The position numbers and the translations under genes were made by a program. A stretch of 34,250 bases of DNA from Candidatus Poseidoniales archaeon (GTDB lineage Archaea > Thermoplasmatota > Poseidoniia > Poseidoniales > Poseidoniaceae). Under the pieces are notes generated by a model that saw only the letters and a program-made list of their open reading frames with translations, made no database searches and was not told the DNA's origin. The DNA lies in assembly GCA_003602635.1 (NCBI GenBank), contig QQSJ01000111.1, positions 1-34,250 on the forward strand, given 5' to 3'. Shown here one piece after another: positions 3,868 to 32,183 of the stretch. Each line of letters starts with the position of its first letter. Position 1 is the stretch's first letter.

Positions 3868-6057
3868 TCACAAGGAGATGCCGAAGGCGAAGAGGCCGCT
3901 TCCCACGAAGAGCAGCCCGCCAATGAGGTAGCCGAGAATGGAGCCACCGTTGAGCAGCGGAAGGCCTGCCTGAGCACGACCCGTGGAAACGGCTCGCATC
4001 AGGAGAGCGTACCCCGCCAGGCCGCCAAGCAAGGTGGTCAGGCCCACGAGGATTCCTTCTGTTCCACCGAGGTACTGCACGGCAGAAAGGACCAGCATGC
4101 CCGGGAAGATGACGTCGCCAAGTCCCATGAACATCGCATCGCGGCCTCCCGTGCTGGCGGTGCTTGAGGAGGGTGCGGAGGACGGAGCTTTGGGTGGGGG
4201 AGCCGGGCGGTCTTCGGAAAACTGCCCGTCGCCGTAGCCTGCGCTGTCTTCGATGAAGGAATAGTCGCGCTTCTGAGGTGCAACCAGCAAGATGGGCAAA
4301 CGCAGGCCAATCATCGTGTCCGCCAATTCCAGCATGTGCCGGCTGCGGTACACGGCCCATGCGTCGTAGACCGCTGCAGCGATCATGAACACGATGACCA
4401 GAGGCGGAACGAAGGTCACACCAAGCATGGTGATGACGCCGGCACCGACGAGCACGCCGACCGTGTTGACCACGTACCATTCCGAGTGAACGTACAGCAG
4501 GATCATCATCACGATGCCCACGACCAACCCAATGATCGAGGCGAGGGTGTCGAACATGATGTCGCCACGGAGGAACATGTCAACCGTGAAGACGCCGGTT
4601 TGCACATCGTTGTCGTCGACGAGGGCGATGCGCCATTCGTCTCCACCGATGACCGCCAGATGAGTGACGTCGGTGACGTCGTCGAACACGAAGAATCTGA
4701 CCAAGGATTCGCCGACGTACATGCTCACCGATTCCTCGCTCAGGACCCAGACCTCAACGTCTCCGTCGGTGTCCACCTCGCTGTCCACGTCGCTGATGAC
4801 GATGTCAACCACCCCGCTCCCGACGTCGTCCAAGCGAAGGCGGTCTTCCTGTTCTGGCGCGGCATCGGCCGCGGTCCACTGAGTGTTCCACGTCCAAGCC
4901 TCAACCGCTCCGGACGCGTCACCAAACCACAGGAGGCGTTGTTCTGGTGATGCCGAGGTTTTGAACCAAGGCGACGGAGCGACGTGAGCCGTCGTGAGCG
5001 CATCAGAACCCTCGGCTGAACGGTCAATGCTCATCGCCTCCTTCACCGGTGCCATCGGATTGCCTTGGTCGTCAAACCCAATCGACGTGTCCTCAAGTTC
5101 GATCACGGTGGCGTAGGTTTCGCTGACCACCAACCAATGGTCTTCACCGAGGAGTTCGCTGTGGACGAAACCGGTGTTCAGGTCCAATTCTGGAGGGAGC
5201 TGCCAGGCAGCCTGCTGCCGATAGACGGTGCTGCCTGCTTGGTCGACGGCAACGTAGCGCCAGAGGACCTCAGCGCCGTCGATGATGTAGAGGTCGTCAC
5301 CAAACATGGCGGCGGCGGCGCAGCCCACGATTTCCACGGGGCCGTTTTCGCCCTCTTCAAAGCAAGAAAAAGACGAATCCATGCTGCCGTCGTCGTTGAG
5401 GTTCCACACGAAAGCACCGTTGAACAGGGTCATCTTCGATGCCCCGTTTTCGGACGGATGTTCCGTGGCCCGAATAATGTCGTAATTCAGTGCATTTTCA
5501 TCCAATGGATGCGGGTGTGTGGCCGTCCACGAGGTGGTGCCGTTGGCCCAATCGTCCGATTGGACGGACGTGATGACGTTGATCCAGTCCCCGTCGTCGT
5601 TGTATTCGAGGTTCGCGAAGATGGCATGATCCGGACCGAATTCTCCAATGATGCGTCCATCGGGGCGTGATTCTGCTTCGCTGTCGAAGGGAAGCACGCC
5701 GGGGTCGTCGACCAAAATGACGTGGGCAAGCGGAACCGTGGTGTACATCAGGGCCAAAGCCAGGATGGCCATCACACCGTACTTGATGACCCAACGTGCG
5801 CCCATGCGCACGAGGAAGAGGATGGCCGCAGTGAAGATGAAGATCATCACCAATTCAAGGGCGACGTAGCGCACTTGCGTGGCGCCTGATTCACCAAAGG
5901 CTTGCAATTGGTTGGCGTCGTAGAACGGTCGAATCACCAATCCAAGCAGAATGGTGCCGACAAACATCCCGGCCATGCCCAGCATGGACGCCCACTCGCC
6001 TCGGTCCGAGGGCACCGTCTCGTCGGATGGCATGGGATTTCGTGGGAGGGGGGACAT
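3868..6057 (-). CDS. Presenilin/signal-peptide-peptidase-type aspartyl intramembrane protease with large extracytoplasmic insertion
   Basis: About 729 residues from the ATG at 6057; a second ATG at 6033 is equally possible. Three helices occupy roughly residues 25-46, 64-86 and 89-115. An acidic extracytoplasmic region of about 375 residues follows (117-490), with repeating strand-rich W/Y/D segments that look like a beta-propeller. Six more helices come next. The catalytic marks of family A22 are in order: Y-D in VYDAW (Asp565), GLGD (Asp648) followed by VIFPGML, and LPLLNGG near 699, the equivalent of the PAL motif. Between the two aspartates is a Pro/Ser/Ala-rich cytoplasmic loop (about 615-640). 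Archaeal A22 proteases cut within membrane helices. The inserted domain between helices 3 and 4 is not part of the usual archaeal form, as far as I know. Catalytic assignment is firm; the role of the insertion is unknown. Confidence 0.85.
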   Translation of the reverse strand: MSPLPRNPMPSDETVPSDRGEWASMLGMAGMFVGTILLGLVIRPFYDANQLQAFGESGATQVRYVALELVMIFIFTAAILFLVRMGARWVIKYGVMAILALALMYTTVPLAHVILVDDPGVLPFDSEAESRPDGRIIGEFGPDHAIFANLEYNDDGDWINVITSVQSDDWANGTTSWTATHPHPLDENALNYDIIRATEHPSENGASKMTLFNGAFVWNLNDDGSMDSSFSCFEEGENGPVEIVGCAAAAMFGDDLYIIDGAEVLWRYVAVDQAGSTVYRQQAAWQLPPELDLNTGFVHSELLGEDHWLVVSETYATVIELEDTSIGFDDQGNPMAPVKEAMSIDRSAEGSDALTTAHVAPSPWFKTSASPEQRLLWFGDASGAVEAWTWNTQWTAADAAPEQEDRLRLDDVGSGVVDIVISDVDSEVDTDGDVEVWVLSEESVSMYVGESLVRFFVFDDVTDVTHLAVIGGDEWRIALVDDNDVQTGVFTVDMFLRGDIMFDTLASIIGLVVGIVMMILLYVHSEWYVVNTVGVLVGAGVITMLGVTFVPPLVIVFMIAAAVYDAWAVYRSRHMLELADTMIGLRLPILLVAPQKRDYSFIEDSAGYGDGQFSEDRPAPPPKAPSSAPSSSTASTGGRDAMFMGLGDVIFPGMLVLSAVQYLGGTEGILVGLTTLLGGLAGYALLMRAVSTGRAQAGLPLLNGGSILGYLIGGLLFVGSGLFAFGISL

Positions 6058-6115
6058 TTGACCGCATCGGTGCAAGCAACGCCATGATGATGACCCCTCA
6101 CCCCACGACAGGAAC

Positions 6116-7393
6116 GTGGGTGCCCAAGGACCACGCGCTTGGTTGGACGCTCGCCGTGCCAAAGGCATGGCCCTAGGCCTTGACACCACGCGGCGACTGC
6201 TTCTGGCGCTTGGCCGACCGGACCTTCGACCGGAGACGGTGATTCACGTGGCCGGTTCCAACGGCAAAGGCACCGTGTGTGCCTTGCTGGCCGCGACTGC
6301 GCAGGCCAAAGGGCACACCACGCTCTTGTTCACCTCACCGCACGTGGCGCGCATCGAAGAGCGCATCCGGGTCAACGGACGACCGGTGAGCGCCGCTGTC
6401 TTTGACGAAGCCGTGCTTCGTGTGAAGGCCTGCGCGGAGGGCCTTGCCCTCGAACCGACCTTCTTCGAGACCACCATGCTTGTCGCTTGGGCCGTGTCTG
6501 AGGCCGTGAATGCGCAGGTCGTGGTTCAGGAAACCGGCCTCGGGGGGCGCCTCGACGCCACCCGAGCCACCAAGGCCGACCTGGCCGTTGTGACGTCCAT
6601 TAGCGTCGAACACGCCGCCTTGTTGGGCTCCACACGGGCAGACGTGATGGTTGAGAAGGCGGCCATCGCACGTCCGGGTCAACCGATGGTGCTCCGCGAC
6701 CCTGAGGATGCGGAGGTCCTGGCAGCCGCACGGCGCACTGCGGAACATGCGGGCACGTACGACTTGGACGGCGAGGGCCCAGCAAGCAAGGTGATCGTGG
6801 TCCCGATTCCGGACGGAGTCGACGTTCGCGAAGAGGCGACGCACCTCGCGCACGCCGCATGCGAAACGCTTGGTTGGTCCACCGATGGTCTCGCCGATCG
6901 CGCAGCCAAGGTTCGCTGGCCGGCCCGCGCGCAATGGGTCGAAGCGTCGGGCTGTGGACCGATGCTGATCGACGCCGCTCACAACCCCTCCGGACTGGCC
7001 AGAGCGCTGCCAGGGCTGTGGTCCTCCTTCCAAGCCCGCATCGGAGCCGGTGGATGGCGTGTGCTTTTCGGCACCTCTCCTCAAACCGACCTCGATGCCA
7101 TGGTGCTCCCACTGCTCGAGCGATGCCGCTTGAGCCATCCCGACGACGTGTTGCTCGTTGCACCTGAAGGTGGCAGGATGGACGGCGTTCCTCCAGAAAC
7201 CCTCGCGGACCTTGCGTGGTCGAGCTTGAACGGCGTGTTGCCCTTCGATTCAGTCAAGGAGGCCTTGGAGCACATGCGCGCAGAACCAAGACCGACCCTG
7301 GTGCTTGGTTCGCTGTACCTCGCGGGCAACGTGCTCGCTGAACTCGGACGTGATACGGACGACGACCTGTCCCTCTTGGCTTCGCAAGGGTGA
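6116..7393 (+). CDS. folC: Folylpolyglutamate synthase / dihydrofolate synthase family
   Basis: A protein of 425 residues of the Mur-ligase superfamily. The family ligates glutamate onto folates (and, in bifunctional members, onto dihydropteroate) using ATP. The ATP loop GSNGKGT is at 47-53, with the following helix and SPHVARIEERIRVNG segment typical of FolC. ETGLGGRLDATR begins at 139, and the VTSISVEHAALLG segment contains the metal-site histidine. DAAHNPSG begins at Asp286 and marks the C-terminal domain. The only start in this frame after an upstream stop is the GTG at 6116; the more attractive ATG run at 6084-6092 is in another frame. It is divergent from the protease gene with about 58 bases between starts, and is followed after 34 bases by a dCMP deaminase-like gene, giving a small one-carbon and nucleotide pair. 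In archaea the natural folate may be a modified pterin. Confidence 0.92.
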   Translation: MGAQGPRAWLDARRAKGMALGLDTTRRLLLALGRPDLRPETVIHVAGSNGKGTVCALLAATAQAKGHTTLLFTSPHVARIEERIRVNGRPVSAAVFDEAVLRVKACAEGLALEPTFFETTMLVAWAVSEAVNAQVVVQETGLGGRLDATRATKADLAVVTSISVEHAALLGSTRADVMVEKAAIARPGQPMVLRDPEDAEVLAAARRTAEHAGTYDLDGEGPASKVIVVPIPDGVDVREEATHLAHAACETLGWSTDGLADRAAKVRWPARAQWVEASGCGPMLIDAAHNPSGLARALPGLWSSFQARIGAGGWRVLFGTSPQTDLDAMVLPLLERCRLSHPDDVLLVAPEGGRMDGVPPETLADLAWSSLNGVLPFDSVKEALEHMRAEPRPTLVLGSLYLAGNVLAELGRDTDDDLSLLASQG

Positions 7394-12745: not shown

Positions 12746-13051
12746 ATGGACGAACTCGTCCACGTGCGCATCAACGGTCACAGCATGTGGCCAACGTATG
12801 CTGATCAGCACGTGGCCACGTTTCGGACGGTCAACACCACACAGCCCGTTCCACCTGGAACCGTCGTGCTGGCTCAACACCCGCTCAAGCCAGACGTCAA
12901 GGTGGTCAAACGTGTTCGTCACATCACCGATGACGGACGGCTCTTCCTCGAAGGCGATCAACCCGACCCGCTGGGAAGCGAGGACTCGCACAACTTTGGC
13001 CCCGTAAAGCCGGAGGCCATCCTGGCCGTGGCCGCCGAGGATCACGGCTAA
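12746..13051 (+). CDS. sodX: NiSOD maturation peptidase SodX (S24/S26-type Ser-Lys protease)
   Basis: A protein of 101 residues with no membrane anchor. GHSMWPTY places the nucleophile Ser13 in the same SM-x-P context as type I signal peptidases. VVKRV supplies the general-base Lys55, and DQPDPLGSEDSHNFGPV is the conserved G-D-x-P-x-x-S-x-D-S box of S26 proteins. Small soluble members of this kind next to sodN remove the leader of the NiSOD precursor, freeing the N-terminal histidine for nickel binding. The gene starts nine bases after sodN and is surely co-transcribed. Its stop shares bases with the stop of the convergent giant surface protein (CTAA at 13048-13051). Function is assigned from family and context together. 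Confidence 0.9.
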   Translation: MDELVHVRINGHSMWPTYADQHVATFRTVNTTQPVPPGTVVLAQHPLKPDVKVVKRVRHITDDGRLFLEGDQPDPLGSEDSHNFGPVKPEAILAVAAEDHG

Positions 13052-16000
13052 ACTTCGTCGTCGTATTCGTCGTCGTCCTCGTCGAAGTCTTCGTCGTCTT
13101 GGTCGTCCCAAGCGTCCTCATCGTCGTCGAAGAACGCGCCTTCACCGTGGTCGATGGCCGTGCGTTGCGCAACTGTTCCCACGATGGCGACAAGGAGCAG
13201 CCCGAAGATGGAGAAGATCCACGCAAGTGGGTTCTCGCGGTACGAGTCCTTCCAACCGAAACCAGCGGCGTAGGCGACCACGAGGCCGTGTTCGGCCTCG
13301 TTGTCGTCATCGTTGGCTTCGAGCACCACGTTTTCTTCGTCCACGACCACACGAATGCGGTCGACGTCTTCCGCCGCCCACTGTTGAACCAGTTCGACGG
13401 TCTCTCCAGCCCCAAGGCCGGCCATGGCCATCGTCGCGAAGGGTTTCTCGGCGTCCCCGGCGTAGAACGCGACGTTGAACGAAGTGTTCGTCGCACCACC
13501 GACGTTTTCCACACCCACCGTGATCATCACATCAGATCGAGGTGCAATGTGGTCGTCGGACAAGGCGATGGAGGCCACGCGCAGTTCTGGACCAACGGCA
13601 CCGAGCCGCACCCATTGGCGCTCAAAGTCGGTGTCGTCCTCGGCCAGTTCAGGGATCGGGCTGGCCTCTGAGTTCGAAACAACGGGGAAGTCGTTGCCTG
13701 CAGCATCGTATCCTGACACAAAGAAACCCACGAAGTCGCCTTCCCGTGGCGTGATGGTCCCGCCTGCGGTCAAGTCAACGCTGCCGGTCCACGTCACGAT
13801 CATGCCGTCCTGGCGCATGCCAAGCGGACTCGAACCTGCACCGATGGTGATGGTGCGCGTTTCGTCACGCATCACCCAATGCACGTACTGAACCGAACCG
13901 GTCAGGTCGGCGTCTTCTGAGCCTAGGAATTCCACAGGCACCGAACTGAGGTCGTTCTGTTCGGACACGTCAATGACGTTGAGTGGAGCCACACGCCGCG
14001 TCACGCGAGGTGCAGCGTCGTCAACAAGGACGCGCAGCGTGGTGGACACCAACGTGCCCGTCATGTCCTCGCCACGGCCAGGAATGTTCGTGATGGAAAT
14101 CAAGCACGTCCTCGTGGGCGAGGACTGCAAGGTGGTCGCCGACGAAAGGGGCACCTCGACCTCGTAACCACCGTTCTCGGTGAGTGAGCCGTCGGACCAC
14201 GTCTTTTCGCCGTCAAACACGTCGACGAGGATCCCCAAATCACGGGGTGCCGCGATGTCAGACCCTTCGTACACAACCCGTCCGGTGAAGGCCAAACGGT
14301 CGTCCTTGCGCACGCGGGTTCCGTCTGCGACGGGGCCGGTGCGGGGTTCACTGACGTCGTTCACTTCGAAGGAATCTGAAGCGAGAACGAGGTCGTTTTC
14401 GACCCGGAAGGTGTGCTCCAAGAGCAAAATCCTGCTGTCGCCAGAGGACGCGCGCTCCTTGTACAGCAACGCGACGTCGCCCATTTCCTCGTCCGGCCAA
14501 TCCCAACCAAACTTGATCTGGAAGGTGACGATGATCCACGGCAGCCCTGATTCGTTGGTCGTCTCGACCATCGTGCTTGTTGGCAGGATGGAGATGAAGG
14601 GGCTCTCGGACCAGAAGGTGTCGTTCAGACCAGAGTAGGAAATCCGTTGAGCGTCGCGTGCAGGGTTTGGCCCTTCAAAGTCGAAGACCAAACTGATGTG
14701 CTCGAAGTCGATGGCGGTGTTGGCGTCGATGAAGCCGAGCGTGATGGTCTGGGTCAGTCCTGCGTACACGGCCGCGTTGTCGTCGTGTCCGAGCCATTCC
14801 AAGCCCGTGAAGATGGCCGAGGAGTCTTTGCGTGTCCTGAAGGTGGCGTCGTCGTAATTGAAGCCGTGCTCGCCCTTGAGCTGCAGCACTTCTTCGTCGA
14901 GTCCAACGGCTTCGTAGTACAGCGGATTGCCGGCTTGGTCGCCACCACTCCAGAAGTAGGACACACGTCCCATGTTTGGATTGCGGCTGTGGTCGATGGT
15001 CGTGGCGAACCACTTCTTCGTAGACTCGCTGTCGTTGGACACCTGCTTGGTGGCGTACTCAGACGGTTCCGCCTCGCCGTTTCGGTTGAGGTCGTGGTCT
15101 TGTTCGACCCAGTAATTCAGGGTCAATTCCATCGGAACTCCGATCTCGTCGTTGACCAAGGCCCGGACGGGTTGCTGATTGGACGCTGCTTCGTAGGCGT
15201 CCTCGGCCGGCACCGTGAGGGTGCGTTCTGGGGCGGTACCGTCCACACGGAAGGTACGCGACCACTCCGAGTTGGGCGTCAGCACGTGGGTCGGATCTTT
15301 CTCGTTGTAGGTCTGAACTTCGTAGGTGATGCCGTCTGGAATGTCCAAGTTTGGCACATCGATGCTGATGAAGAACGAACCGTTGTTGTTCGAAGTGTCC
15401 CTTGCGGACGCTTCGACGTAGTTGTTGCGAGCGACGCGGACGTCAAAGGCGCTGTCCAGGGGTGCGTCTTCCGTGTCCATGAACCACATGGCTCCCGTGA
15501 AGTGGAGTTGCTCACCGGCGGAGACCCAACCTTGGTCGGGCACGTCGTCGCGGGTCAGTTCACCGTCGTTGTCACGGACCTTGAGGTACCCAAGGCCGTA
15601 GGAACGGTTGGCGAGGAGTTGCCCGTCCGATTGAAGGAGGGCTGGGCTGTACCCAGCAGAGCCTGAGTCGTCAAGGCAGTTGGTTCGGAAACCGACGCCT
15701 CCAACCACGCCTTGGCCGTCGTGTTGGCCCATGTCGGGCATCTGGTCGGTGACGGTGAAGAACCAATGAACTTCGAGGATGCCGTTGCTCAGCACCGAGT
15801 AGGAGGTCGAGTCCAGTTCGATGTAATCGTCCGGATCGTTTGGGGCCGGGAACACGTCGCCTGGATTCCACGTCATGGTTGGGTTGGCCGAAGCGCGGTT
15901 GGTCAGCAACGTAAGGCTGGCTTCTTGCAATCCGTTGGCGTTCTCGCCAATGACGTGCCGAGTCACCACTTCGTACGGTTCAGCACGTGCATGGAGCACC

Positions 16001-18132
16001 TCGCCTTCTGGAATCTGGATGGCCAAGTTCACCGTTTGCATGGTGTAGGTGACCTCAAACGAGGACAGGATCAGCTTGCCCGGTTTCGAAGACGTCAGGG
16101 TCACTTCAAGATCAACGTACCCCGAACCGGTGGAGGGAATGTTGTCGTTGAAGCCTTTCAGGAACCGAGACCCTGAATCTTGGCTCTGCGCGGTTGCTGC
16201 GCCAAACAAGGTGCCCTGTCGATCCCATACTTCTGTGCCGGCCACCTTGAGTTCAACGTTCTCAGGAACGTTGGAGTGGAACTGGATGTGCACGTCTTCT
16301 AGCGTCGGAGAGCGAAGGTTCGAGGTCGAGGCGAGCTCGATCCTGAAGCACTGGTAATACGAGGTCGAGGTGAAGGATTTCGACTGACCGGATTGCGTGA
16401 ATTGTTGGACGTTGAGGCTGCCTGATGTGCACGAGGTGCTCGAAGAGCCTGTGGCCAAGTTCACTTTGATGGACGTGCCCGTCGGCGTGGTGGCGTTCCA
16501 ATGAACGGTGGCTGCGACCACGCTGGTGGTGCCGCCTGTGTATTGGTAGCCGTAGATGTAGCCGTTCCTGACGTATTGGTTGACGTATTCAACGACGACA
16601 CCGTCCAAAATGGGCGTGTCTTGTGCCGTTCCAGACAATGTGGCACGCCAGGTGATTTGCGTGCCTGCCTGAGCGAAATTCACCGTTTGGCCCGGGGTCG
16701 CAGACAGCCACGTGGTTCCGCCGTCGTTGGAGACCTGCACCGACACGGACGTCCCTGAAGGAACGAAGGCGAAGACACCTGCAAGCTTCAGCGAAGAAAC
16801 GCCGCTGGAAATGGTGGTGGTGGCTCCTTGCACCGTTGCAGACGTGCCTGATGTTGAGCGCTCGTCGTACAGTGCACCGTCACCGGCCATCTGGAATTGG
16901 CGTGCATAGCCGCTGCAGTAACTGACGTGGAAACACGCCCACATGACCTTCCCCTCGTCGTATTCTGCCAAGCCGTAGTGCCCGCCGCCGGGCATGGCTT
17001 GGTAGCCTTCCTTGGCGAGCAAACTGCCCGTGAAGGAGTAGTGGTGATGTCGGCTGCCCTGAATGTTGTACTCGTTGACCGTCACGCGAGGGTGGTTCAC
17101 GTCCAAACCCGACAACGGATTGTTCGACGCCCCGTTGTGGTTGAAATCGGAAGAAGATCCGAGGCTCCACGTTCCGTTGATGGACGTTGGAGAGGCCGGG
17201 TTCAATTCCATGAGGTACTGGTTGTAAATCGGGTACGAACTGCTGTCGTAGTAGGTGGCCCAGAGTTTGTTGGTGCTCTCGTCAAAGTCAACGCCTGTGA
17301 TGTAGTATGGGTAACCAAAACTGTACGAATTGCTGCACGTCCATGAGGTCTCGCTGACCGTCCACTTTGAGAGAAGGTAATTGGAATAGTGCGCAAGCCA
17401 CACCTTTCCGCCCGAGTCCATCGTGGCGTCGTAAATGTTGTAGCGCACGGAAGTGCTGGAACAGGTGCCGGTGCTCATGCTGGCCGTTCCGATGTAATCT
17501 CCCGTGGTGGCGTTGAACCGTTGAATGGTGGGGACGTTGTACAACGAGGAAGAGGTGTACCGGAATTGATGAATCTCGTCTTCGACCACGATGTTCACTC
17601 CCGCATAGGTCCACGCCGTGGTGGACGGTGCGCTGATGGCCGAGAAACGGGTGAGGACCCCGGTGTAGCCTTGGTCTCCAAGCGAGACGAAACCGCCCGT
17701 GGTGTTGTGCGTGGCCGTGCCTACGCTGCTCAACGCGGCGCTGGACGTCAAACTGCCCGAGGTGGTTGAAGGCTGAGGACGCAGCGTCACGTCGGTGTTC
17801 TCGACGTGCACGTTGCTTCGGCTTCCGCTGGTGTACGGCGAAGGGGGCGATCCTGAGAAGGTGCCGCTGCCTGCTCCGCCAAAGTGGCGGTCCGTGGTGA
17901 AATTGGTGTAGGTGGTTTGCGCAGCGTCCCCGACCAAATTGAATCGAGCCCCGGTGACTTCAGAACCGTAGGGCAAGGTGATGAGCCCTGCGCTCCCTTC
18001 CCCAGCGCTGTTGAAGGTGTGCGTGTAGGAGGTCGTTCCATCCTTGAACTGCGTTTCAGTGGTCGCCCCAGCAGCCAACGGCGTGGCCAGAGAAAGGAGG
18101 AACAGAAGCGTGAGAAACACGGCCTTTCGCAT
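13048..18132 (-). CDS. Giant surface protein with CARDB domain, C-terminal membrane anchor and acidic cytoplasmic tail
   Basis: 1694 residues from the ATG at 18132, which begins a clean signal peptide ending near residue 24 (ATPLAAGA); the longer reading from 18180 adds a basic stretch before it. The N-terminal third is Ser/Thr/Gly/Tyr-rich and strand-rich, with segments such as ITGVDFDESTNKLWATYYD that look like a beta-propeller. Two related modules then occur, each ending in a strand like LDGVVVEY or LEDVHIQF, resembling jelly-roll repeats. The middle holds several Ig-like modules. Residues 1514-1620 match a CARDB adhesion module. One helix (about 1636-1655) anchors it, leaving a 39-residue tail almost entirely Asp/Glu. 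A role in adhesion or surface structure is inferred; no catalytic motif was found. Confidence 0.8.
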   Translation of the reverse strand: MRKAVFLTLLFLLSLATPLAAGATTETQFKDGTTSYTHTFNSAGEGSAGLITLPYGSEVTGARFNLVGDAAQTTYTNFTTDRHFGGAGSGTFSGSPPSPYTSGSRSNVHVENTDVTLRPQPSTTSGSLTSSAALSSVGTATHNTTGGFVSLGDQGYTGVLTRFSAISAPSTTAWTYAGVNIVVEDEIHQFRYTSSSLYNVPTIQRFNATTGDYIGTASMSTGTCSSTSVRYNIYDATMDSGGKVWLAHYSNYLLSKWTVSETSWTCSNSYSFGYPYYITGVDFDESTNKLWATYYDSSSYPIYNQYLMELNPASPTSINGTWSLGSSSDFNHNGASNNPLSGLDVNHPRVTVNEYNIQGSRHHHYSFTGSLLAKEGYQAMPGGGHYGLAEYDEGKVMWACFHVSYCSGYARQFQMAGDGALYDERSTSGTSATVQGATTTISSGVSSLKLAGVFAFVPSGTSVSVQVSNDGGTTWLSATPGQTVNFAQAGTQITWRATLSGTAQDTPILDGVVVEYVNQYVRNGYIYGYQYTGGTTSVVAATVHWNATTPTGTSIKVNLATGSSSTSCTSGSLNVQQFTQSGQSKSFTSTSYYQCFRIELASTSNLRSPTLEDVHIQFHSNVPENVELKVAGTEVWDRQGTLFGAATAQSQDSGSRFLKGFNDNIPSTGSGYVDLEVTLTSSKPGKLILSSFEVTYTMQTVNLAIQIPEGEVLHARAEPYEVVTRHVIGENANGLQEASLTLLTNRASANPTMTWNPGDVFPAPNDPDDYIELDSTSYSVLSNGILEVHWFFTVTDQMPDMGQHDGQGVVGGVGFRTNCLDDSGSAGYSPALLQSDGQLLANRSYGLGYLKVRDNDGELTRDDVPDQGWVSAGEQLHFTGAMWFMDTEDAPLDSAFDVRVARNNYVEASARDTSNNNGSFFISIDVPNLDIPDGITYEVQTYNEKDPTHVLTPNSEWSRTFRVDGTAPERTLTVPAEDAYEAASNQQPVRALVNDEIGVPMELTLNYWVEQDHDLNRNGEAEPSEYATKQVSNDSESTKKWFATTIDHSRNPNMGRVSYFWSGGDQAGNPLYYEAVGLDEEVLQLKGEHGFNYDDATFRTRKDSSAIFTGLEWLGHDDNAAVYAGLTQTITLGFIDANTAIDFEHISLVFDFEGPNPARDAQRISYSGLNDTFWSESPFISILPTSTMVETTNESGLPWIIVTFQIKFGWDWPDEEMGDVALLYKERASSGDSRILLLEHTFRVENDLVLASDSFEVNDVSEPRTGPVADGTRVRKDDRLAFTGRVVYEGSDIAAPRDLGILVDVFDGEKTWSDGSLTENGGYEVEVPLSSATTLQSSPTRTCLISITNIPGRGEDMTGTLVSTTLRVLVDDAAPRVTRRVAPLNVIDVSEQNDLSSVPVEFLGSEDADLTGSVQYVHWVMRDETRTITIGAGSSPLGMRQDGMIVTWTGSVDLTAGGTITPREGDFVGFFVSGYDAAGNDFPVVSNSEASPIPELAEDDTDFERQWVRLGAVGPELRVASIALSDDHIAPRSDVMITVGVENVGGATNTSFNVAFYAGDAEKPFATMAMAGLGAGETVELVQQWAAEDVDRIRVVVDEENVVLEANDDDNEAEHGLVVAYAAGFGWKDSYRENPLAWIFSIFGLLLVAIVGTVAQRTAIDHGEGAFFDDDEDAWDDQDDEDFDEDDDEYDDEV
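13054..13131 (-). repeat. Low-complexity Asp/Glu codon run
   Basis: Repeated GAC/GAA codons, seen on the plus strand as a near-continuous run of GTC and TTC triplets, encode the acidic cytoplasmic tail of the giant surface protein. The run is imperfect and interrupted by A, W, Q, F and Y codons, so it is coding low complexity rather than a true microsatellite. Confidence 0.7.
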
Positions 18133-18250
18133 GAGGAACCCTCGTAGGGCCTTGGGGCCCTTCCTCAAGACGGTTTGCACACCATATCAATGGAATGGTC
18201 ATGTGTTTGGCACTCATGCTCAACCGCAACGGATATGTTGCCGCGTCAAC

Positions 18251-24148: not shown

Positions 24149-24949
24149 ATGATGTCCGAGGATTGCAAGGTCCGTGATGGGCTTCAAATCCCTCTGCCAT
24201 GTCGCCGAAGCGTGGCCCGCATCGGCGTTCGGAGCGCTGATTTCACCTGGGTGCATCAGGTGCTGATCCTTCTTCGAAACCTCGGGCATCGCCCGTGCCA
24301 TCTCGAAGCTGACGAAGACGTGCCCCATGACGTCCATGTGGTGGTGAGCACGGTCGAAGAGTGCAACAGCAGCGAACGTGGCCTTCGTCGAGACCACCTT
24401 GAGGCGGATTTGGCGAAGGCACTGCGGAACGCTGGAAGCACCACGGGGAAGCGACGTGTGGTGATTGGGGTGGACCCAGGACCACGTCCCGGCGTGGTCT
24501 GGTCTGTGGACGGACGTGAGGAAGGCGCCAAACAATTGGATCGACCCGACGACGTGGCACGCGTTGTCCGAGAACTGAGCGAGGCCCACGACGACCGCCC
24601 GTTGTTGGTGCGCGTGGGCGACGGTGACCCGGGCGTGCGCAACCGGATCCTCCGGGACCTCTTTGACACGGGCCATGCGGTCGAACTGGTGGACGAACGG
24701 AGGACCTCGAAAGGACTCGCACGTCATGACCACATTGGCGCTGCCCGTCGCATCCACCGTTTGCGGGGCCGTGCCATGGGTTTGGTTCCTGACGACCCCC
24801 GATGGGACGGCATGGTGCGTGACGTGCAACGCCGGAGCCGCGAATGGACGAGTGGCCGGTTGACCCTCCCGTCTGATCTGGCCTTGGACGTGGCGCGTGG
24901 TGAACTCAGCATGGCTGAAGCGGTGGCCAAAATGGAAGGCCTCAGCTGA
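24149..24949 (+). CDS. RuvC/RNase H-fold protein, predicted nuclease-like
   Basis: About 266 residues from ATG 24149; ATG 24152 or 24119 are alternatives. The last would overlap the hjc start codon and adds AT-rich codons unlike the rest. The N-terminal 95 residues form a small alpha/beta domain I do not recognise (IGVRSADFTWVHQVL). Then VVIGVDPGPRPGVVW matches strand 1 of a RuvC/RNase H fold, with its catalytic-type Asp. A second acidic spot occurs in VRVGDGDPG. ELVDERRTS and HDHIGAARRI follow, similar to the DERLT and late Asp/His elements of the RuvX/YqgF and RuvC groups. These suggest a structure-specific nuclease or resolvase-like protein. The divergent neighbour is Hjc. Activity is inferred from fold motifs only. 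Confidence 0.65.
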   Translation: MMSEDCKVRDGLQIPLPCRRSVARIGVRSADFTWVHQVLILLRNLGHRPCHLEADEDVPHDVHVVVSTVEECNSSERGLRRDHLEADLAKALRNAGSTTGKRRVVIGVDPGPRPGVVWSVDGREEGAKQLDRPDDVARVVRELSEAHDDRPLLVRVGDGDPGVRNRILRDLFDTGHAVELVDERRTSKGLARHDHIGAARRIHRLRGRAMGLVPDDPRWDGMVRDVQRRSREWTSGRLTLPSDLALDVARGELSMAEAVAKMEGLS

Positions 24950-25787
24950 CTTGGATGCTGTACCGTGTCCTACCACGCCAATACACGCTGATGCGACCGC
25001 CGCTGGACACGCAGATGGCCAGGGCTGCGGCTTGGAGCGAGAGGGCCTTGGCGGCCAAATGGCGCCCGCCTTCGCCGGAATGAAGCGGCACGTCTGTCGT
25101 CACCTGGATGTACCGTCCAGCGTCGCTGGCCACCCCGGCACGGTTGAACAGGATCGCTCCGTCCAACCACGCAAACTCAAGGATGGTTTCGTGGGTGTCC
25201 TCACGCAAAATGTCCCTTCGGGCCACGGGATGGCCCTTGAACGGATTGAGGACGAGGGCCTTGGAATGCCGTCGCATGGAAGGAAGGCTTCCGATGCCAA
25301 ACAGGGCTCCGATGGCATGGCCTTCACGGCCGCGATCTGCGATCGCTCGGGCCAATCCGATGGCCGCCGTGAGCACGTCAAGGTCCACGTCGGCCTCTTC
25401 GGCCAAGGTCACCAGATTGTGAGAATCAAGCGAACCGGTGTCGACGTCCAACACGCCTTCGATCGGATCGGCGAGGACCACCAAATACCGCTCCTCGCGG
25501 GAAGCAAGGTGTTCTCCGACGGTTTGGAGCACCAGGTCATGCAAGTGCGTCAAAAGGCCGAGGCGTTGCGAGGTCAAGCGTTGTTCAAGCAAGGTGCACG
25601 GTTGCCCGGAGGCAAGCACGGCTTCCATGACCGTACGCTGGCTCGTCAACACGGAACGCGGCATGGAATCGGGCAGGCGCTCCAAAGCAGCGAGCAACGA
25701 GCGGGAGTTGGTCCCAATGAGCACAGCGCGGTCGTAGGAAACACGGCCGGCGAGGCTGGCTTCAACAAGGTCAGCCAGGACCACCAC
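24942..25787 (-). CDS. dacZ: Diadenylate cyclase, DacZ-like (c-di-AMP synthase)
   Basis: 281 residues. The C-terminal 80 form the DAC domain: WLDGAILFNRAGV carries the DGA motif (209-211), and GEGGRHLAAKALS (238-250) is the counterpart of the GxRHR motif, here RHL as in variable archaeal forms. IQVTTDVP and CVSSGGRISVYWRG complete the strands. The N-terminal 150 residues resemble the pyruvate-kinase-C-like domain of archaeal DacZ. The enzyme makes cyclic di-AMP from two ATP; in haloarchaea this signal is tied to osmotic and potassium control. The GTG start at 25787 is preceded by GAGGTG, overlapping the stop of the upstream macro-domain gene, so both are co-translated. The last eight bases overlap the convergent RuvC-fold gene. 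Confidence 0.82.
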   Translation of the reverse strand: MVVLADLVEASLAGRVSYDRAVLIGTNSRSLLAALERLPDSMPRSVLTSQRTVMEAVLASGQPCTLLEQRLTSQRLGLLTHLHDLVLQTVGEHLASREERYLVVLADPIEGVLDVDTGSLDSHNLVTLAEEADVDLDVLTAAIGLARAIADRGREGHAIGALFGIGSLPSMRRHSKALVLNPFKGHPVARRDILREDTHETILEFAWLDGAILFNRAGVASDAGRYIQVTTDVPLHSGEGGRHLAAKALSLQAAALAICVSSGGRISVYWRGRTRYSIQVS

Positions 25788-25796
25788 GAGCGCACC

Positions 25797-26423
25797 TCAA
25801 GCCGTGGTCGTGTCCATGCCGGGGAACTGATCCTCGTTTTCGCGGTACACGGTCCGCATGTTCATGATGAAATTACGGTCCTTGACCACGAGAATGTACT
25901 CGTTGAATCCGGGGTCCTCAACGCCGTCCAACTTCGAGAGGATGATGTCAAGGGTCAGCTTGGCGCCTTCACGGTGCGGGTAAGCGAACACACCCATGGA
26001 GATGGGAGGTGCCACGATGCGGCGAACCTCGCCAAGGGTCTCCACACGCTCGAAGATGTTCGCATAGGTCTCAGGGAGCAACTCGCGGCGACGTTCGTCC
26101 TGGTTGGGTCGGCGGCAGTCAGGGCCGACCGCGTGAATCACGTGCGTGTAGCGGTCGCTGAGGGCGAACGGACTGGTCACCACGTTCGTGGTCACTGCGC
26201 AAGGTGGAGCGTTGATCTTCCGTTGGTCGAGGCAAATTTGGCGGGTGGCTTGGGTCATCTCTTCGCCGGCTTCGGCGTGGATGCGTGCATCCATGCCTTC
26301 GCGACCAGAGAGTCGATTGTTGGCAGGGGTGATGAGGACATCACCGTCGTGATGCCACGGTTCGCCACCGACCACGCGGAGGACGCCGTGACGACAAGTT
26401 CGTGCCATGTACAGTTCGGCCAT
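25797..26423 (-). CDS. Macro-domain protein (ADP-ribose-binding or deacylase type)
   Basis: 208 residues from the ATG at 26423. The macro fold is clear: GDVLITPANNRLSGREGMDA (N-A-N-N with the Gly-rich loop), ARIHAEAGEEM, then YTHVIHAVGPD and the late loop ISMGVFAYPHREGA that wraps the distal ribose. Such proteins bind ADP-ribose or related nucleotides and may remove ADP-ribose from proteins or deacetylate O-acetyl-ADP-ribose. The C-terminal strands include YILVVKDRNFIMN. A TATA-like box 26 bases upstream supports this start as leaderless. It is followed by dacZ with a nine-base gap, an operon of nucleotide-signal proteins. Substrate is unknown. Confidence 0.87.
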   Translation of the reverse strand: MAELYMARTCRHGVLRVVGGEPWHHDGDVLITPANNRLSGREGMDARIHAEAGEEMTQATRQICLDQRKINAPPCAVTTNVVTSPFALSDRYTHVIHAVGPDCRRPNQDERRRELLPETYANIFERVETLGEVRRIVAPPISMGVFAYPHREGAKLTLDIILSKLDGVEDPGFNEYILVVKDRNFIMNMRTVYRENEDQFPGMDTTTA

Positions 26424-26444
26424 GAACGGCCGAAAGGGCACGAG

Positions 26445-26453
26445 TACATATGA
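26445..26453 (-). promoter_or_regulatory. TATA-like box for the macro-dacZ operon
   Basis: The minus strand reads TCATATGTA, centred 26 bases before the ATG at 26423. This is the expected archaeal spacing for a transcript starting at the start codon. Confidence 0.5.
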
Positions 26454-26469
26454 GGTATGGAAATGAGGC

Positions 26470-26497
26470 CCTTCCTCGCGCCGCAGCGCAAGGAGGG
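26470..26497. other. Imperfect hairpin between MC1 and the macro-domain gene
   Basis: A GCGC/GCGC stem with loop CGCA is extended by seven more pairs (one of them G-T) after a single C-A mismatch. A second short hairpin, ACCCA-AAA-TGGGT, is at 26504-26516. Both lie after the MC1 stop on its strand and could help end or stabilise that transcript, but only a short T run follows, so terminator function is uncertain. Confidence 0.3.
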
Positions 26498-26543
26498 CGG
26501 TCGACCCAAAATGGGTTATGGCGTAGAAACGCGGGCGAGAACC

Positions 26544-26810
26544 TCAGTCGAGGTGCTCGATGCCCTGCTTCTTGACGTTCGCCTTCTTGATCTTGTCAGG
26601 CAGCCAGGCGGGCCCGTTGGCGGGCTTGGCAACCATGGAGATCGAGCCGGTGAAAACGTGGACACGCTTCGTCCCGCGCTCGCGCAGGCGAATGTTCGTG
26701 TGACCGCGCGTCGCGGCCTTAAGGGCCGCACCACGCGGTTGCTTGCTCGCGAACACTTGGCTCGTATCCTTTCCGTTTTCCATCAGCACAAAGTACTTCT
26801 TTTCTCCCAT
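26544..26810 (-). CDS. Archaeal chromatin protein MC1
   Basis: 88 residues from the ATG at 26810, close to the 93 of the Methanosarcina protein. The match is along the whole length: KKYFVLMENGKD at the start, then SKQPRGAALKAATRG, NIRLRERGTKRVHVFTGS, and the end NGPAWLPDKIKKANVKKQ. MC1 is a monomeric protein that binds and sharply bends DNA and compacts the archaeal chromosome. The protein is rich in Lys and Arg and should be abundant. The start is settled by GGAGG eight bases upstream; a longer reading to 26840 would begin upstream of this site. A TATA box and a strong ribosome site, rare in this window, suggest high expression. Confidence 0.95.
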   Translation of the reverse strand: MGEKKYFVLMENGKDTSQVFASKQPRGAALKAATRGHTNIRLRERGTKRVHVFTGSISMVAKPANGPAWLPDKIKKANVKKQGIEHLD

Positions 26811-26818
26811 GAGGTATT

Positions 26819-26823
26819 CCTCC
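26819..26823 (-). promoter_or_regulatory. Ribosome binding site of MC1
   Basis: GGAGG on the minus strand, eight bases before the ATG at 26810. It is among the clearest Shine-Dalgarno sites in the window and decides the start. Confidence 0.7.
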
Positions 26824-26846
26824 ATTTGTCTGTTTGTCAAGACGAC

Positions 26847-26936: not shown

Positions 26937-29900
26937 TCATTGATTCAGCGGAGTTTGCTCCTCCACAAAGGCATCCCAAGCTGCATCCGACCATCCCTCT
27001 GGGCATGGACCGTTGAGCCAATCGCTGTACTGCTCCGCGGACCAGCCCTCAGGACGTTTGAGGGCGGTCGCCTCCGACGAAGGTGCATGATCCCAAAGCG
27101 CGTCCTGGTCCGCTTCACCGACGCCGACGACGCCCTCTTCTTCGAAGGAAGCCTGCTTCGAACGCGTGAGCAAGACCGTCACGAGCGTCACGAGGAGCAA
27201 CAAGGGCAGGACGAGGTAGAACAACGGCATGGCCTCAGATTCGGCTTCGGAAGCACCGCCCTCGTCATCGGGTTCGGTGGAACGGTTGGCGGCTGCGAGC
27301 ACCACAGGCACCTCGACAACGTCGAACTCGTCGTCCACGTCCACGCATCGGAGGGTTTGGATCAGCGTACCGTTGACGGTCCCAAGCGACAACCAGGTGG
27401 CGCTCAAGTCTGCATCTTCTTCCGAGAAGGCGACCACGCGGGCCGTGCCCTCATGCACGATGGCGCCTTCTTCGTCAGCCACCGTCAGGGCACATTCAAC
27501 CCCCAGCACACCATCAAGGTCGGTCAAATCGGCCGTCAAGGTGACCGGGTCCCCCGCAACGCCGGTGCTGTTGACCGTCACAAGACCGATCTCGGGCGGC
27601 GCATGCCGAAGGATGAGGTTCAGCACAGACCGGCTGCTCGCTCCATCGATGTCGGTGGCGCGCAAGCCGACGCTGGCCTCGCCGTTGACGAAGGCGCGGT
27701 CGGGCCGCAACCGGAACCACTGGGCATGTTCGTCGTCAGGCACTTGGGCAGCACAGGACGGTGAAGGAGAAGCCTCGGATTCCCCTGGCGTCCATCGCGG
27801 AGCAGTGGAACGCCAGCCCTCCTGTTCGATGGTGACCACCGTTTCCTGAAGCGGCCGGCTGCTGACCACGCTGGCGCCAAACCAGACTTCCATGCCGAAC
27901 CGGAGTTCATCGGCTTGACCACGTTCGTCGCACAGCACAGCCTGGGCAATGGTCGGCGGCGTCAGCGCCACATCGCGCTGAAGCGAGGCGACAACGGTCG
28001 CACCGTGCGCACCGGCGAGATCCACCTCAAGCACCAGCGCTCCGTCTTCCAAGGGATTGATCGGAGCCTCGACCTCGAGGACGACAAGCGGCGTGCCGGC
28101 GTTGATCTGCAACGGCGTGACACGTGGCGCCTGACCTGGCCAAGACACGATGAGGTCACCGACCGCACCGGTTCCATCGTCGTCGAGGTCGACGTACGTG
28201 ATGTGCAAGCGCTCGGAACCGTCGCCCACCGCGCGGTCGAGCGCCAGACCGTCCTCGTCGAGGAGTGAAAGGGTCACCAAGGGCGCTTGGTCATCAACGG
28301 CATACCTGCGGCGAACACGCTCCTCCTCTGCGGCATGAATCACAAGGTCAAGGTCATCGAGCGGCAAGCCGTTTGGAAGCGTCATGTTCCAGGCCGAACA
28401 GGTGAGGCTCGGATTCAGGTTGATTTCGCCAAGGGCTTCGACGGTCACCGATTCAACCGCTGTCCCGTCCCTGCGTTGAACGCTCAGGGACGGCGCTTCC
28501 CCGACCGGGTCGTGGTCCACGTCAGAAACACATGCACTGACGGTGGAGGTGGCGTCCCTTGGCAGTCCCTTGAACGGCACTCCGGGTGGAAGCGTCACGC
28601 CCGCCCATGGCGAAGCGTCCACGTCGGTCACGTGTGGGCCGTACCACGAACTTGGGGCGTTGAGCACCTCCAAGACCCCGGGTACCTCCAACGTGGCGGT
28701 GGCTTGGCTGACGTCCATCGCGACGGCACGAAGGTCGAGCATCCCGGTCGGGATGACCGCCGCATCGACGGGAAGGAAGAGGCTGCTCCACCACACACGT
28801 CCGTCGGACGTGCCCAGCGGGAGCTCCTCCCAAGCCGATGTGACGTTCGTGGTGTCGTTGCGGACGGACCATTCGAGGCGAACGTCGGTGACGTTGAGGT
28901 CGTCGGTCGCCTCGACCTCACAGATGATGTTGTCACCTCTGTAGGCGGCTTGACCGATGCACCGGGCGTCGAGGACAACAGGAGGAGCGTTGCTCCAAAA
29001 CCTGTGCAGGAGGAGGTTGTCATCGACAGCGACCTCGCCATGTGCGTCGGTGGCAAGGTAACGGATTTGCACGTCGATCCATCCGCTCCGCTCCACCGTG
29101 ACGTTGAGCGGTAGAATGATCCTGGAACCGCTGAGGTTCCCCGCAGGCATCGTGATGTCGGTGCTCGAAAGCAGGGTTGAACCTTGGACGTCCCTGACCT
29201 CAATGCGTCCGTCCGCCATGCTCATGCCGTGGTTTTCCACCACCAGTTCCAGCGTTGCGTTGAGCCCTTGGGTGACGTTGGCCACGTTGCGAACATCGAC
29301 CAAACGCACGTCATGGAATTGATTGGCGTACGGCGCCATCTTTGGATCGCCCACGACGACCCCCATCCAACCGATCTGCTGGTTCGCCATCGCGTGCGCT
29401 TCCGCCATGGAGTATCCCGTCGCGTAGGCATCAAGAAGCACGGAAGGAGAACCAACGGCGGTGAGGTAGGGTTCGTACACGTAGCCCTTGACGCTTGAGA
29501 CGCCGTCTTCGAGGAGGTCAGCGACGAGCGATTGGCCGTAATCGGTCCCCCATGAGAAGGATCGTCCACCGGTGGACACCGCGGTTTCAGCAATGCTTCC
29601 GTTGACCCAATCGAAGGACGGACGGACGGCGCGCAACAGCACGTCGTCGAGGTGCAAGGCCCCGTCCACCGACGTCGGGACGACGTCGAAGTTCACGGTC
29701 ACCCTCAACTGCGTTGCCGCGGGATCCGGCCTGAACCGGGTCACGTCCGTCCCCCATGACGTGGTGGTCGTCCGGGAAGACGAGGTGTTCGTGGAAAGGA
29801 CCTGGCCTTGAGCATCAAGTCCCTCGACGGTGACGTCGTAGGAACCGTGCGCCGTGCCTGAACGGCGGCCGTGAGCCAAGGCCATCCAAGCATGCTCTTC

Positions 29901-32183
29901 GAGGCCTTGTGGCACGTCGAAGGTCTGCGAAACGCTGGCGACCGAAGCACCGGCCATGGAGAGGGGTTGGCATGTCCCAAGGACGGCCCGGTTCAATGCG
30001 GTGATTTCCCAATCCTCGAGGGCCGAGGACCACACCGCAACCTCGTCGATCATGCCTTCGAAATGCGTGCTTCCGGCGCGGTTGACGCCCAGGCGGTACC
30101 GTTCGATGTCGTTGACGGCCCCGCTGGGTTGTTGATGGGTGTCGACCAACACACCGTCCGCATAGAGCCGCACTTCCCCGCCGTCGAAAACGGTGACCAG
30201 ATGCGTCCAGCGCTGAGCATCGATCGGTCCAAACGCGTGAGTCTGGTTGTTGTGAAAGCGCCATTCGCCGCTGAACACGGCGTGCTGGAAAGAGGCGTTC
30301 GCTCCGGCGTTGTTGGACACGGCGAAGGTGCTCGCGTAATCCGGCAGACCGGTTGAGTTCGCCCAGACCCATTGGCTGACGGTGAAATCTCCCGTCCAAT
30401 CCTCAACGTCCACGTCGAGGTAATCGTCGGTGCCGTCAAACCACAAGCAACCGCCGTCCACGCACGAGCGCCAATTGCCGTTGTCCATCCCATAAGCGGT
30501 CAGGTTCGCGTCGCCGACAGCGTCCAGCACGGAGGAACCGGTCCCGTCTTCGAAGGACCAGTGATGTTCCAACGTGCTGGCCGATGGCATCCAATCCCCG
30601 GACACCAAGAAGGCGCTTGGCGGCACGGGCGTTTTGCTCATGTTGGCGGTGGACCACGCCAACTTCAGACCATGTGGACCTCCGCCCTGGTAGAATTCAA
30701 TGCGCAGGTCGTAGAGGCCGGCCTCCAAGTCGACCCAGCCGGTTCGTTCAACCATCCCGTGCATGCCGTGGTTGGTGACGATGCTGTCTCCGTCGATCCA
30801 CAGCTCTGTGCCGTCGTCGCTGGTCAGGTGGAAGGTCCAATTGTCCGTCCATGGGACGTCGATCAGGCCGGAAAATCGAGCGCCCCAGTTGTGCTTGAAA
30901 CGGTCGTCAAGGCCGGGATAAGGCTGGCCTGATGAGCCGTAATCGAGGTCCGATTCAACTCGCGCATGGTCGGGTGCCCGGTCGATGAGCGTGGGCATCG
31001 CTCCCGACGGGATGTTGACGCCCCCTTCGTTGTCGAAGAATTCGCCGTGCAGGCCGGCTGTGCCGTTGCCCGGGAACTGGCTGCAGTTGGCCACGACCTC
31101 AAGCGCCATCCCGCCTGAACCTCCTCGCTTCACGTCGCTCCAAGACCAACCAAAGGATTCCCCGGCCCCTGGTGCGGTTGCGCTGACCTCCCAGAGCGCT
31201 CGGCCGCTGGAGGTGGTGGCATCCGCCGTCTCGAACCCTTGGTTGGGCAGGAAATTCTCAGCCCAAGCTCCGTCGTTGCTGCCCCACGAGGCATACCCCA
31301 TCACGTTGGAGAGGTTGGTCAGGAAGGTCGACGTCTCGTCAAAGAGCACGTCGATGCCATGCGTTTGGTTGAGCGTGGCGTTGGCCACGTAGAGGTCGTC
31401 GTTCCAGAACTTGTAGCCCGAACCGTTGCGGTTGGTGGCCAGATCCAACACGTGCGTGCCACGCTCACCGAGGCTGCCGTTGGCCTTCTCGATGAGGCCG
31501 AGGGCGGTTTCAACGGTGTATCCGGTCAGTCGGGTGACCAGGAAGAACCCCTGATCGTCTCGGTTGAAGCGCTCCATCGGCCCACCGGACAACGGCCCGT
31601 AGCTGTGCGTGTCCCACCAGTCCTGACCGATGCTGCCGTTGTACGCCCCACCAACGAGGGACAACTCCTGGTCGAAACTGGCCTTGTGGTTGCCTCCTGA
31701 GACCCGAAGAGGGATGCCCTTGGTGGTGACCAAGTAATTCAGCGAGGACGAGGTGTTGCGCTCCAGCAGCATCGTTCGGAAGGGATCCTCGAAATGCGTT
31801 TGGAAGGCCTGACGGTTGATGGTCTCGGACGTGGGCACGTCGCTTCCGTTGAAGATGAACACCCGGTCTTCGCTGATGTTCCTGGCCGAAACAAAGGCCC
31901 AGCCGATCGTCCGGCTGGCCTCTGAATTGTTGTTGATGAGGACGCCCACGTCGCTGTAGTCCAACACGGTGAGCAGGTCAAACTCACCGGGAACGGCCAC
32001 GTCCACCCACGGCGTCTGATTCCACACGTCGGACGATGTGCTTGCTTGGAAGCCCGAAAAGAGGGACGTGAGGCTTGACGAAGCAGACGGTTCCTCCTCG
32101 TGCCCACCGGTCACGACCGAGGGAGGGCACAAGGGCACCAGAAACAGGGTCAACACCGCGAGGACAACCCATCCTCGCCGCAT
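26937..32183 (-). CDS. Giant multidomain surface protein: TIGR03790-like, CBM-like, PA14, LamG, Ig-like domains, membrane anchor
   Basis: 1748 residues with a signal peptide (1-25). Residues 55-305 match the first half of TIGR03790-type proteins (LVTTKGIPLR, MGYASWGSNDGAW). The second half is at 856-950 (SIAETAVSTGGRSF, VKGYVYEPYLTAVG, VVVGDPKMAPY). Between them lie a CBM4_9-like start (NQGFE, 314-370), a PA14 domain (377-525, SDDGTELWIDGD), a LamG/concanavalin-like domain (538-735, WFDGTDDYLDV) and a CBM-like end (740-851, LHLDDVLL). CARDB or Ig-like modules fill 960-1640. A helix at about 1654-1672 anchors it, and a 76-residue cytoplasmic tail ends with two PEGWS units (1711 and 1728). PA14 and LamG modules bind carbohydrate, so a role in glycan contact is likely. 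TIGR03790 has no known activity. MC1 lies downstream. Confidence 0.82.
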   Translation of the reverse strand: MRRGWVVLAVLTLFLVPLCPPSVVTGGHEEEPSASSSLTSLFSGFQASTSSDVWNQTPWVDVAVPGEFDLLTVLDYSDVGVLINNNSEASRTIGWAFVSARNISEDRVFIFNGSDVPTSETINRQAFQTHFEDPFRTMLLERNTSSSLNYLVTTKGIPLRVSGGNHKASFDQELSLVGGAYNGSIGQDWWDTHSYGPLSGGPMERFNRDDQGFFLVTRLTGYTVETALGLIEKANGSLGERGTHVLDLATNRNGSGYKFWNDDLYVANATLNQTHGIDVLFDETSTFLTNLSNVMGYASWGSNDGAWAENFLPNQGFETADATTSSGRALWEVSATAPGAGESFGWSWSDVKRGGSGGMALEVVANCSQFPGNGTAGLHGEFFDNEGGVNIPSGAMPTLIDRAPDHARVESDLDYGSSGQPYPGLDDRFKHNWGARFSGLIDVPWTDNWTFHLTSDDGTELWIDGDSIVTNHGMHGMVERTGWVDLEAGLYDLRIEFYQGGGPHGLKLAWSTANMSKTPVPPSAFLVSGDWMPSASTLEHHWSFEDGTGSSVLDAVGDANLTAYGMDNGNWRSCVDGGCLWFDGTDDYLDVDVEDWTGDFTVSQWVWANSTGLPDYASTFAVSNNAGANASFQHAVFSGEWRFHNNQTHAFGPIDAQRWTHLVTVFDGGEVRLYADGVLVDTHQQPSGAVNDIERYRLGVNRAGSTHFEGMIDEVAVWSSALEDWEITALNRAVLGTCQPLSMAGASVASVSQTFDVPQGLEEHAWMALAHGRRSGTAHGSYDVTVEGLDAQGQVLSTNTSSSRTTTTSWGTDVTRFRPDPAATQLRVTVNFDVVPTSVDGALHLDDVLLRAVRPSFDWVNGSIAETAVSTGGRSFSWGTDYGQSLVADLLEDGVSSVKGYVYEPYLTAVGSPSVLLDAYATGYSMAEAHAMANQQIGWMGVVVGDPKMAPYANQFHDVRLVDVRNVANVTQGLNATLELVVENHGMSMADGRIEVRDVQGSTLLSSTDITMPAGNLSGSRIILPLNVTVERSGWIDVQIRYLATDAHGEVAVDDNLLLHRFWSNAPPVVLDARCIGQAAYRGDNIICEVEATDDLNVTDVRLEWSVRNDTTNVTSAWEELPLGTSDGRVWWSSLFLPVDAAVIPTGMLDLRAVAMDVSQATATLEVPGVLEVLNAPSSWYGPHVTDVDASPWAGVTLPPGVPFKGLPRDATSTVSACVSDVDHDPVGEAPSLSVQRRDGTAVESVTVEALGEINLNPSLTCSAWNMTLPNGLPLDDLDLVIHAAEEERVRRRYAVDDQAPLVTLSLLDEDGLALDRAVGDGSERLHITYVDLDDDGTGAVGDLIVSWPGQAPRVTPLQINAGTPLVVLEVEAPINPLEDGALVLEVDLAGAHGATVVASLQRDVALTPPTIAQAVLCDERGQADELRFGMEVWFGASVVSSRPLQETVVTIEQEGWRSTAPRWTPGESEASPSPSCAAQVPDDEHAQWFRLRPDRAFVNGEASVGLRATDIDGASSRSVLNLILRHAPPEIGLVTVNSTGVAGDPVTLTADLTDLDGVLGVECALTVADEEGAIVHEGTARVVAFSEEDADLSATWLSLGTVNGTLIQTLRCVDVDDEFDVVEVPVVLAAANRSTEPDDEGGASEAESEAMPLFYLVLPLLLLVTLVTVLLTRSKQASFEEEGVVGVGEADQDALWDHAPSSEATALKRPEGWSAEQYSDWLNGPCPEGWSDAAWDAFVEEQTPLNQ

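Follow-up and report, generated by a model that had tools for sequence, protein, structure and literature searches.

The window that we analyzed is a stretch of 34,250 nucleotides from a Poseidoniales (Marine Group II) archaeon. On the minus strand, an open reading frame at 26937-32183 encodes a protein of 1748 residues, P0001; we verified its strand and length. (Coordinates below without a contig prefix are window positions, and all of the window features that we describe are on the minus strand.) Homologs of P0001 were found at all 33 of the Poseidoniales loci that we examined, and the match is full-length unless the gene is cut by the end of a contig. The nearest named relatives of the C-terminal part of its TIGR03790 domain are from metagenome-assembled genomes of Candidatus Poseidoniaceae and Poseidonia. 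A literature search found no paper that names TIGR03790, and this protein is described in none of the papers that the search listed.

By its sequence, P0001 is predicted to be secreted and anchored in the membrane. From the N-terminus onwards, it comprises a TIGR03790 domain, a stalk with paired cysteines, one transmembrane helix, and a short tail. The first 27 residues form a hydrophobic, signal peptide-like segment (32103-32183; the boundary, from hydropathy, is approximate). The stalk (residues 956-1640; 27264-29318) had zero matches in a Pfam search, and it contains four conserved cysteine pairs (1075/1088, 1218/1262, 1418/1477, and 1564/1613); this pattern suggests that the stalk is probably built of Ig-like domains. 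CARDB, PKD, or Ig domains occupy the position of the stalk in relatives from outside the Poseidoniales. The stalk is followed by the transmembrane helix (residues 1652-1674; 27162-27230; hydropathy of 2.8) and by a cytoplasmic tail of 74 residues (1675-1748; 26940-27161) with two PEGW..EQ/AW motifs. This kind of tail is kept in many genera, not in all of them, and a search of P0001's own genome found no second match to it.

The conserved neighbors of the gene encode a Macro-domain protein, the chromosomal protein MC1, and succinate dehydrogenase subunits, and they give no hint as to its function. In the window, the Macro-domain (ADP-ribose-binding) gene is at 25797-26543 and is adjoined by the MC1 gene (26544-26846) and by a gene with a DAC domain (24942-25796). 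Among the relatives, the Macro-domain gene is by or near the surface-protein gene at 29 of 33 loci, in varying orientations. The window also encodes a second giant protein (13048-18180; 1710 residues), which carries a CARDB domain, has a tail that is strongly acidic, and is probably secreted and membrane-anchored. A 773-residue reading frame at 3868-6189 has a long N-terminal part and then a C-terminal presenilin/signal-peptide-peptidase domain.

As a whole, P0001 scores 124 bits against TIGR03790 from NCBIfam, whose curated cut-off is 67 bits, and the match is in two pieces. Positions 2-228 of the profile match residues 78-304 (31269-31952) and positions 233-316 match residues 853-939 (29367-29627); the order of the profile is kept, and about 547 residues separate the pieces. 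We delimit the first part of the domain as residues 70-304 (31272-31976), ending in SWGSND (299-304), and the second as residues 853-955 (29319-29627), with a VGDPK motif near its end. A two-piece match, with a break at about 227/233 of the profile, is present in nearly every TIGR03790-bearing genome of 59 relatives, in open frames that, contig ends permitting, run to about 1700-1835 residues. The insert begins directly behind SWGSND, which is the most conserved motif of TIGR03790. Across 47 sequences of all the forms described below, Y297, S299, W300, G301, N303, and D304 are invariant, as are K155, R218, D247, D946, and K948.

Two recognized domains lie between the TIGR03790 pieces. PA14 (PF07691) scores 49.2 bits, with a gathering cut-off of 24, and Laminin_G_3 (PF13385) scores 72.2 bits, with a gathering cut-off of 27.6; at E ≤ 0.01, both domains match in 46 of 46 relatives. 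The PA14 domain extends over about residues 376-535 (30579-31058; Pfam match at 431-520) and the LamG, or concanavalin-like, domain over about residues 536-736 (29976-30578; Pfam match at 583-727). In PA14 lectins, two consecutive aspartates hold a calcium ion that contacts the diols of sugars (PMC8092209). The corresponding residues of P0001, D456-D457 (30813-30818), are invariant in 33 of 33 Poseidoniales relatives. At the exact ends of the PA14-LamG insert are Cys367 (31083-31085), which is conserved in 33 of 33 relatives, and Cys738 (29970-29972), which is conserved in 32 of 33 (the remaining row has an X). This suggests that a Cys367-Cys738 disulfide would clasp the neck of the inner insert. 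The corresponding hairpin of the single-insert jelly rolls (see below) contains no cysteine.

On either side of these cysteines are the two pieces of a jelly roll, residues 306-368 (31080-31268; its beta-strands are predicted with pLDDT of 82-92) and residues 739-851 (29631-29969). Pfam's CBM_4_9 (PF02018) has no match in P0001, so the jelly roll was identified via relatives in which it is intact. Even among these, the best-annotated member scores 21.9 against PF02018, which is below the gathering cut-off of 25.9; across the single-insert members, the best E value is 2.4e-4 for CBM_4_9 and 2.9e-7 for CBM_4_9_1. When a profile from the alignment of single-insert jelly rolls is searched against the PDB, it turns up carbohydrate-binding domains of xylanases (4xuo, E = 3.2e-4; 2wys, E = 0.02), the match to xylanase Y being weak. 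Because of these matches, we label the domain as CBM4/9/22-like.

We then compared the intact jelly rolls to P0001. A hidden Markov model that included flanking sequence inflated the score of the N-terminal piece because the flank contained SWGSND, so we used a flank-free model instead. This model matches P0001 only from about its position 52 onwards, at residues 745-833 (E = 1.2e-5 for a search-space size of 1000), which is what one would see with the first third of the jelly roll located elsewhere. The N-terminal piece was detected by profile-profile comparison instead. When residues 306-368 and 739-851 of the Poseidoniales family are rejoined, hhalign aligns them to the intact jelly rolls with 98.8% probability and E = 8.7e-17, over 149 columns (1-151 of 153). 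If the columns of the N-terminal piece alone are shuffled, the score is lower in 200 of 200 cases (0/200 reach the true score). The rejoined halves thus match one domain, which is split by PA14 and LamG.

A search of 293 genomes from the phylum, with follow-up of the TIGR03790 loci, identified three forms of the protein. In five genomes, TIGR03790 is uninterrupted, and its two parts are 5-8 residues apart (level 0). In twelve genes with both parts readable, a jelly roll of 143-164 residues lies directly behind SWGSND (level 1). The Poseidoniales proteins have about 547 residues at the identical site (level 2). In other words, the NCBIfam model and five relatives from the phylum are contiguous, while P0001, which matches the model in order on either side of the break and above the curated cut-off, is interrupted after model position 228. 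In a phylogenetic tree, level 2 forms a single clade with support of 100/100. The tree does not show whether level 0 or level 1 came first, so the jelly roll may have been lost in some lineages. From the series of forms, we infer that TIGR03790 was first whole and then gained a jelly roll; PA14 and LamG entered this jelly roll later, in the ancestor from which the Poseidoniales form descends. A search of plasmids and phages for TIGR03790 gave zero matches. A viral contig from IMG/VR (L200:2183-5782) encodes a cysteine-rich, secreted-looking protein of 1199 residues with an uninterrupted TIGR03790.

Rates of conservation give independent support for the nesting, as they pair up by domain half. 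In comparisons of the most distant relatives to P0001, the halves of TIGR03790 match at 0.55 and 0.62-0.67, the halves of the jelly roll at 0.28-0.35 and 0.30, and PA14 and LamG at 0.40-0.45. A reading of this DNA from its sequence alone had proposed that a TIGR03790-like domain is split by a CBM-type jelly roll, which is in turn split by PA14 and LamG. Both levels of nesting and the approximate boundaries hold up, including the two-part TIGR03790 match and the PA14 and LamG profile matches; of the Pfam families that it named, only PF02018 fails to match P0001 itself. The case for nesting is stronger than was claimed, because levels 0, 1, and 2 are all present in one phylum.

Structure prediction modeled the inserted modules better than the domain that carries them. 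With AlphaFold2, residues 56-960 and an alignment of 46 sequences, the inserted modules were mostly predicted with pLDDT of 75-96, and much of TIGR03790 had pLDDT under 50. In a second prediction, with the uninterrupted TIGR03790 from L200 aligned to rows from Poseidoniales, the C-terminal half was also of low confidence. Because AlphaFold left the halves unmodeled, our view that they fold jointly rests on the uninterrupted homologs. In Foldseek comparisons, the PA14 model matched MpPA14, which binds sugars (TMt of about 0.70-0.73), as well as RsgI3; for the LamG model, the match was to domain 4 of the arabinanase AbnA (5hon; TMt of 0.75).

Each of these known proteins uses its module in another setting. 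MpPA14, from an adhesin of Marinomonas primoryensis (6x7z and others), shares the PA14 fold and the consecutive Asp-Asp motif, but it is strung on an adhesin chain, while the PA14 of P0001 is nested within another jelly roll. The best match in the PDB for this PA14, by both sequence and structure, is that of RsgI3 from Clostridium (6qe7). The extracellular part of RsgI3 belongs to an anti-sigma factor, whereas no such cytoplasmic domain was seen in P0001. Domain 4 of AbnA has the same LamG-type beta sandwich, but there it terminates a glycoside hydrolase; in P0001, LamG belongs to the inner insert in TIGR03790. The sequence-only reading had also proposed two likely sugar-binding modules. Sugar binding is plausible, given the invariant Asp-Asp motif and the resemblance of the models to MpPA14 and AbnA, but there are three candidate modules, not two: the jelly roll, PA14, and LamG.

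Nesting itself has precedents. The two-level arrangement A1-B1-C-B2-A2 is known from ndhH, for example, and a six-level arrangement is known from rpoC2 (PMC13114784). P0001 shares this logic of insertion. It differs in that levels 0, 1, and 2 are kept among relatives in one phylum, and in that the innermost insert comprises two domains with a conserved pair of cysteines at the neck. What is new is the preserved series at one site and in one phylum, and the cysteine pair that arrives with the second insertion. Also new is the placement of predicted lectin-type modules beside the conserved motif of an uncharacterized family.

As to what TIGR03790 might be, we found no solved relative in the PDB by sequence, and no enzyme relative is established. 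The family has been described as restricted to genomes that encode exosortases. Within this phylum, TIGR04178 (exosortase/archaeosortase) is present in 61 of 65 genomes with TIGR03790 and in 131 of 228 genomes without it, uncorrected for relatedness. The four TIGR03790 genomes without an exosortase belong to families in which the other members do encode one, and of these four genomes, three are clearly incomplete. The genome that encodes P0001 has an archaeosortase A-like gene (G000:C114:18045-18905). Within Poseidoniales, the co-occurrence is weak because archaeosortase is nearly universal there regardless of TIGR03790. (Archaeosortase A-like proteins are found in 55 of 59 Poseidoniales relatives, many of which have a second exosortase-family protein.) PGF-CTERM proteins, which are the substrates of archaeosortase A, have a C-terminal motif, a transmembrane helix, and a cluster of basic residues at the very end. 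The C-terminus of P0001, with its helix at 1652-1674 and 74 further residues, is not of this type.

Considering the nested anatomy, the stepwise history of insertion, and the nature of the modules together, we think it likely that glycan-binding modules hold a ligand beside a TIGR03790 site that is probably enzymatic. The stalk would lift the head above the membrane. PA14 would bind glycans in a calcium-dependent manner via its Asp-Asp motif, and LamG and the jelly roll probably would as well; the ligand might be a polysaccharide from algae or particles, or the glycans of a glycoprotein. Because the modules grow from the loop that adjoins TIGR03790's best-conserved polar residues, the ligand would be kept beside the site. 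The invariant K155, R218, D247, N303, D304, D946, and K948 suggest that this site is probably enzymatic, and it is from sequence that we infer where the insert lies relative to the putative active site. A disulfide between residues 367 and 738 would clamp the inner insert in place, so that the jelly roll could still fold. Against this reading, the conserved gene neighbors include no glycan-active genes. A more specific version, which we put forward tentatively, is that TIGR03790 is a surface enzyme whose active-site loop became an archaeal landing site for successive glycan-binding modules. At level 0, the catalytic head would be free, and at level 2, it would act on a polysaccharide or glycoprotein that is held beside it.

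P0001 could instead be an adhesin and nothing more, with TIGR03790 as a non-catalytic structural head and the nested lectin modules letting the cell adhere to particles or other cells. A lectin head on a stalk does resemble the architecture of adhesins, PA14 is an established lectin of adhesins (PMC8092209), and TIGR03790 lacks an established enzyme relative. But many polar residues of TIGR03790 are invariant from the uninterrupted relatives through Poseidoniales, and the TIGR03790 parts evolve more slowly than the lectin modules, which is more like an active site than a scaffold. We view this explanation as rather unlikely.

We are similarly doubtful that TIGR03790 is remotely related to the gingipain-type peptidases (C25, clan CD) in which the Cys-His dyad has been replaced and the insert is in the active-site loop. 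When the model of TIGR03790 is compared to known structures with Foldseek, gingipain R (1cvr), of the caspase-like fold, ranks second, with E = 3.2e-3 and a probability of 0.82, but this model is of low confidence. By eye, the order of motifs looks alike, with a GHG- or SWGSND-like strand, a strand with Cys- or Ser-T-G, and a terminal GDP; yet no His or Cys is invariant among the 47 TIGR03790 sequences. Also, hhalign of TIGR03790 against archaeal C25 domains gave probabilities of 0.2-2.5%, which did not exceed those for shuffled columns. Homology is thus unsupported by profiles, and we treat the gingipain match as no more than a weak lead from structure. Many families of the phylum are rich in C25 peptidase genes, with at least 15 matches in some genomes, and none of the matches listed from the phylum search are from Poseidoniales.

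Finally, although AlphaFold gave no single-domain model of the two TIGR03790 halves, it is extremely improbable that they are two independent short domains around a linear array that only looks nested by chance, as this is refuted by the contiguous and single-insert homologs from the phylum and by the colinear match of the rejoined jelly-roll halves.

The steps of a nested insertion rarely all survive, and here three forms coexist at one site, in a phylum that includes an abundant and uncultured group of marine archaea. For TIGR03790, this provides a handle: its polar residues evolve slowly, the insertion point adjoins them, and the predicted lectin-type modules hint that the ligand carries glycans. 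If TIGR03790 is an enzyme, then a series from one phylum would allow the effect of every insertion to be measured directly.
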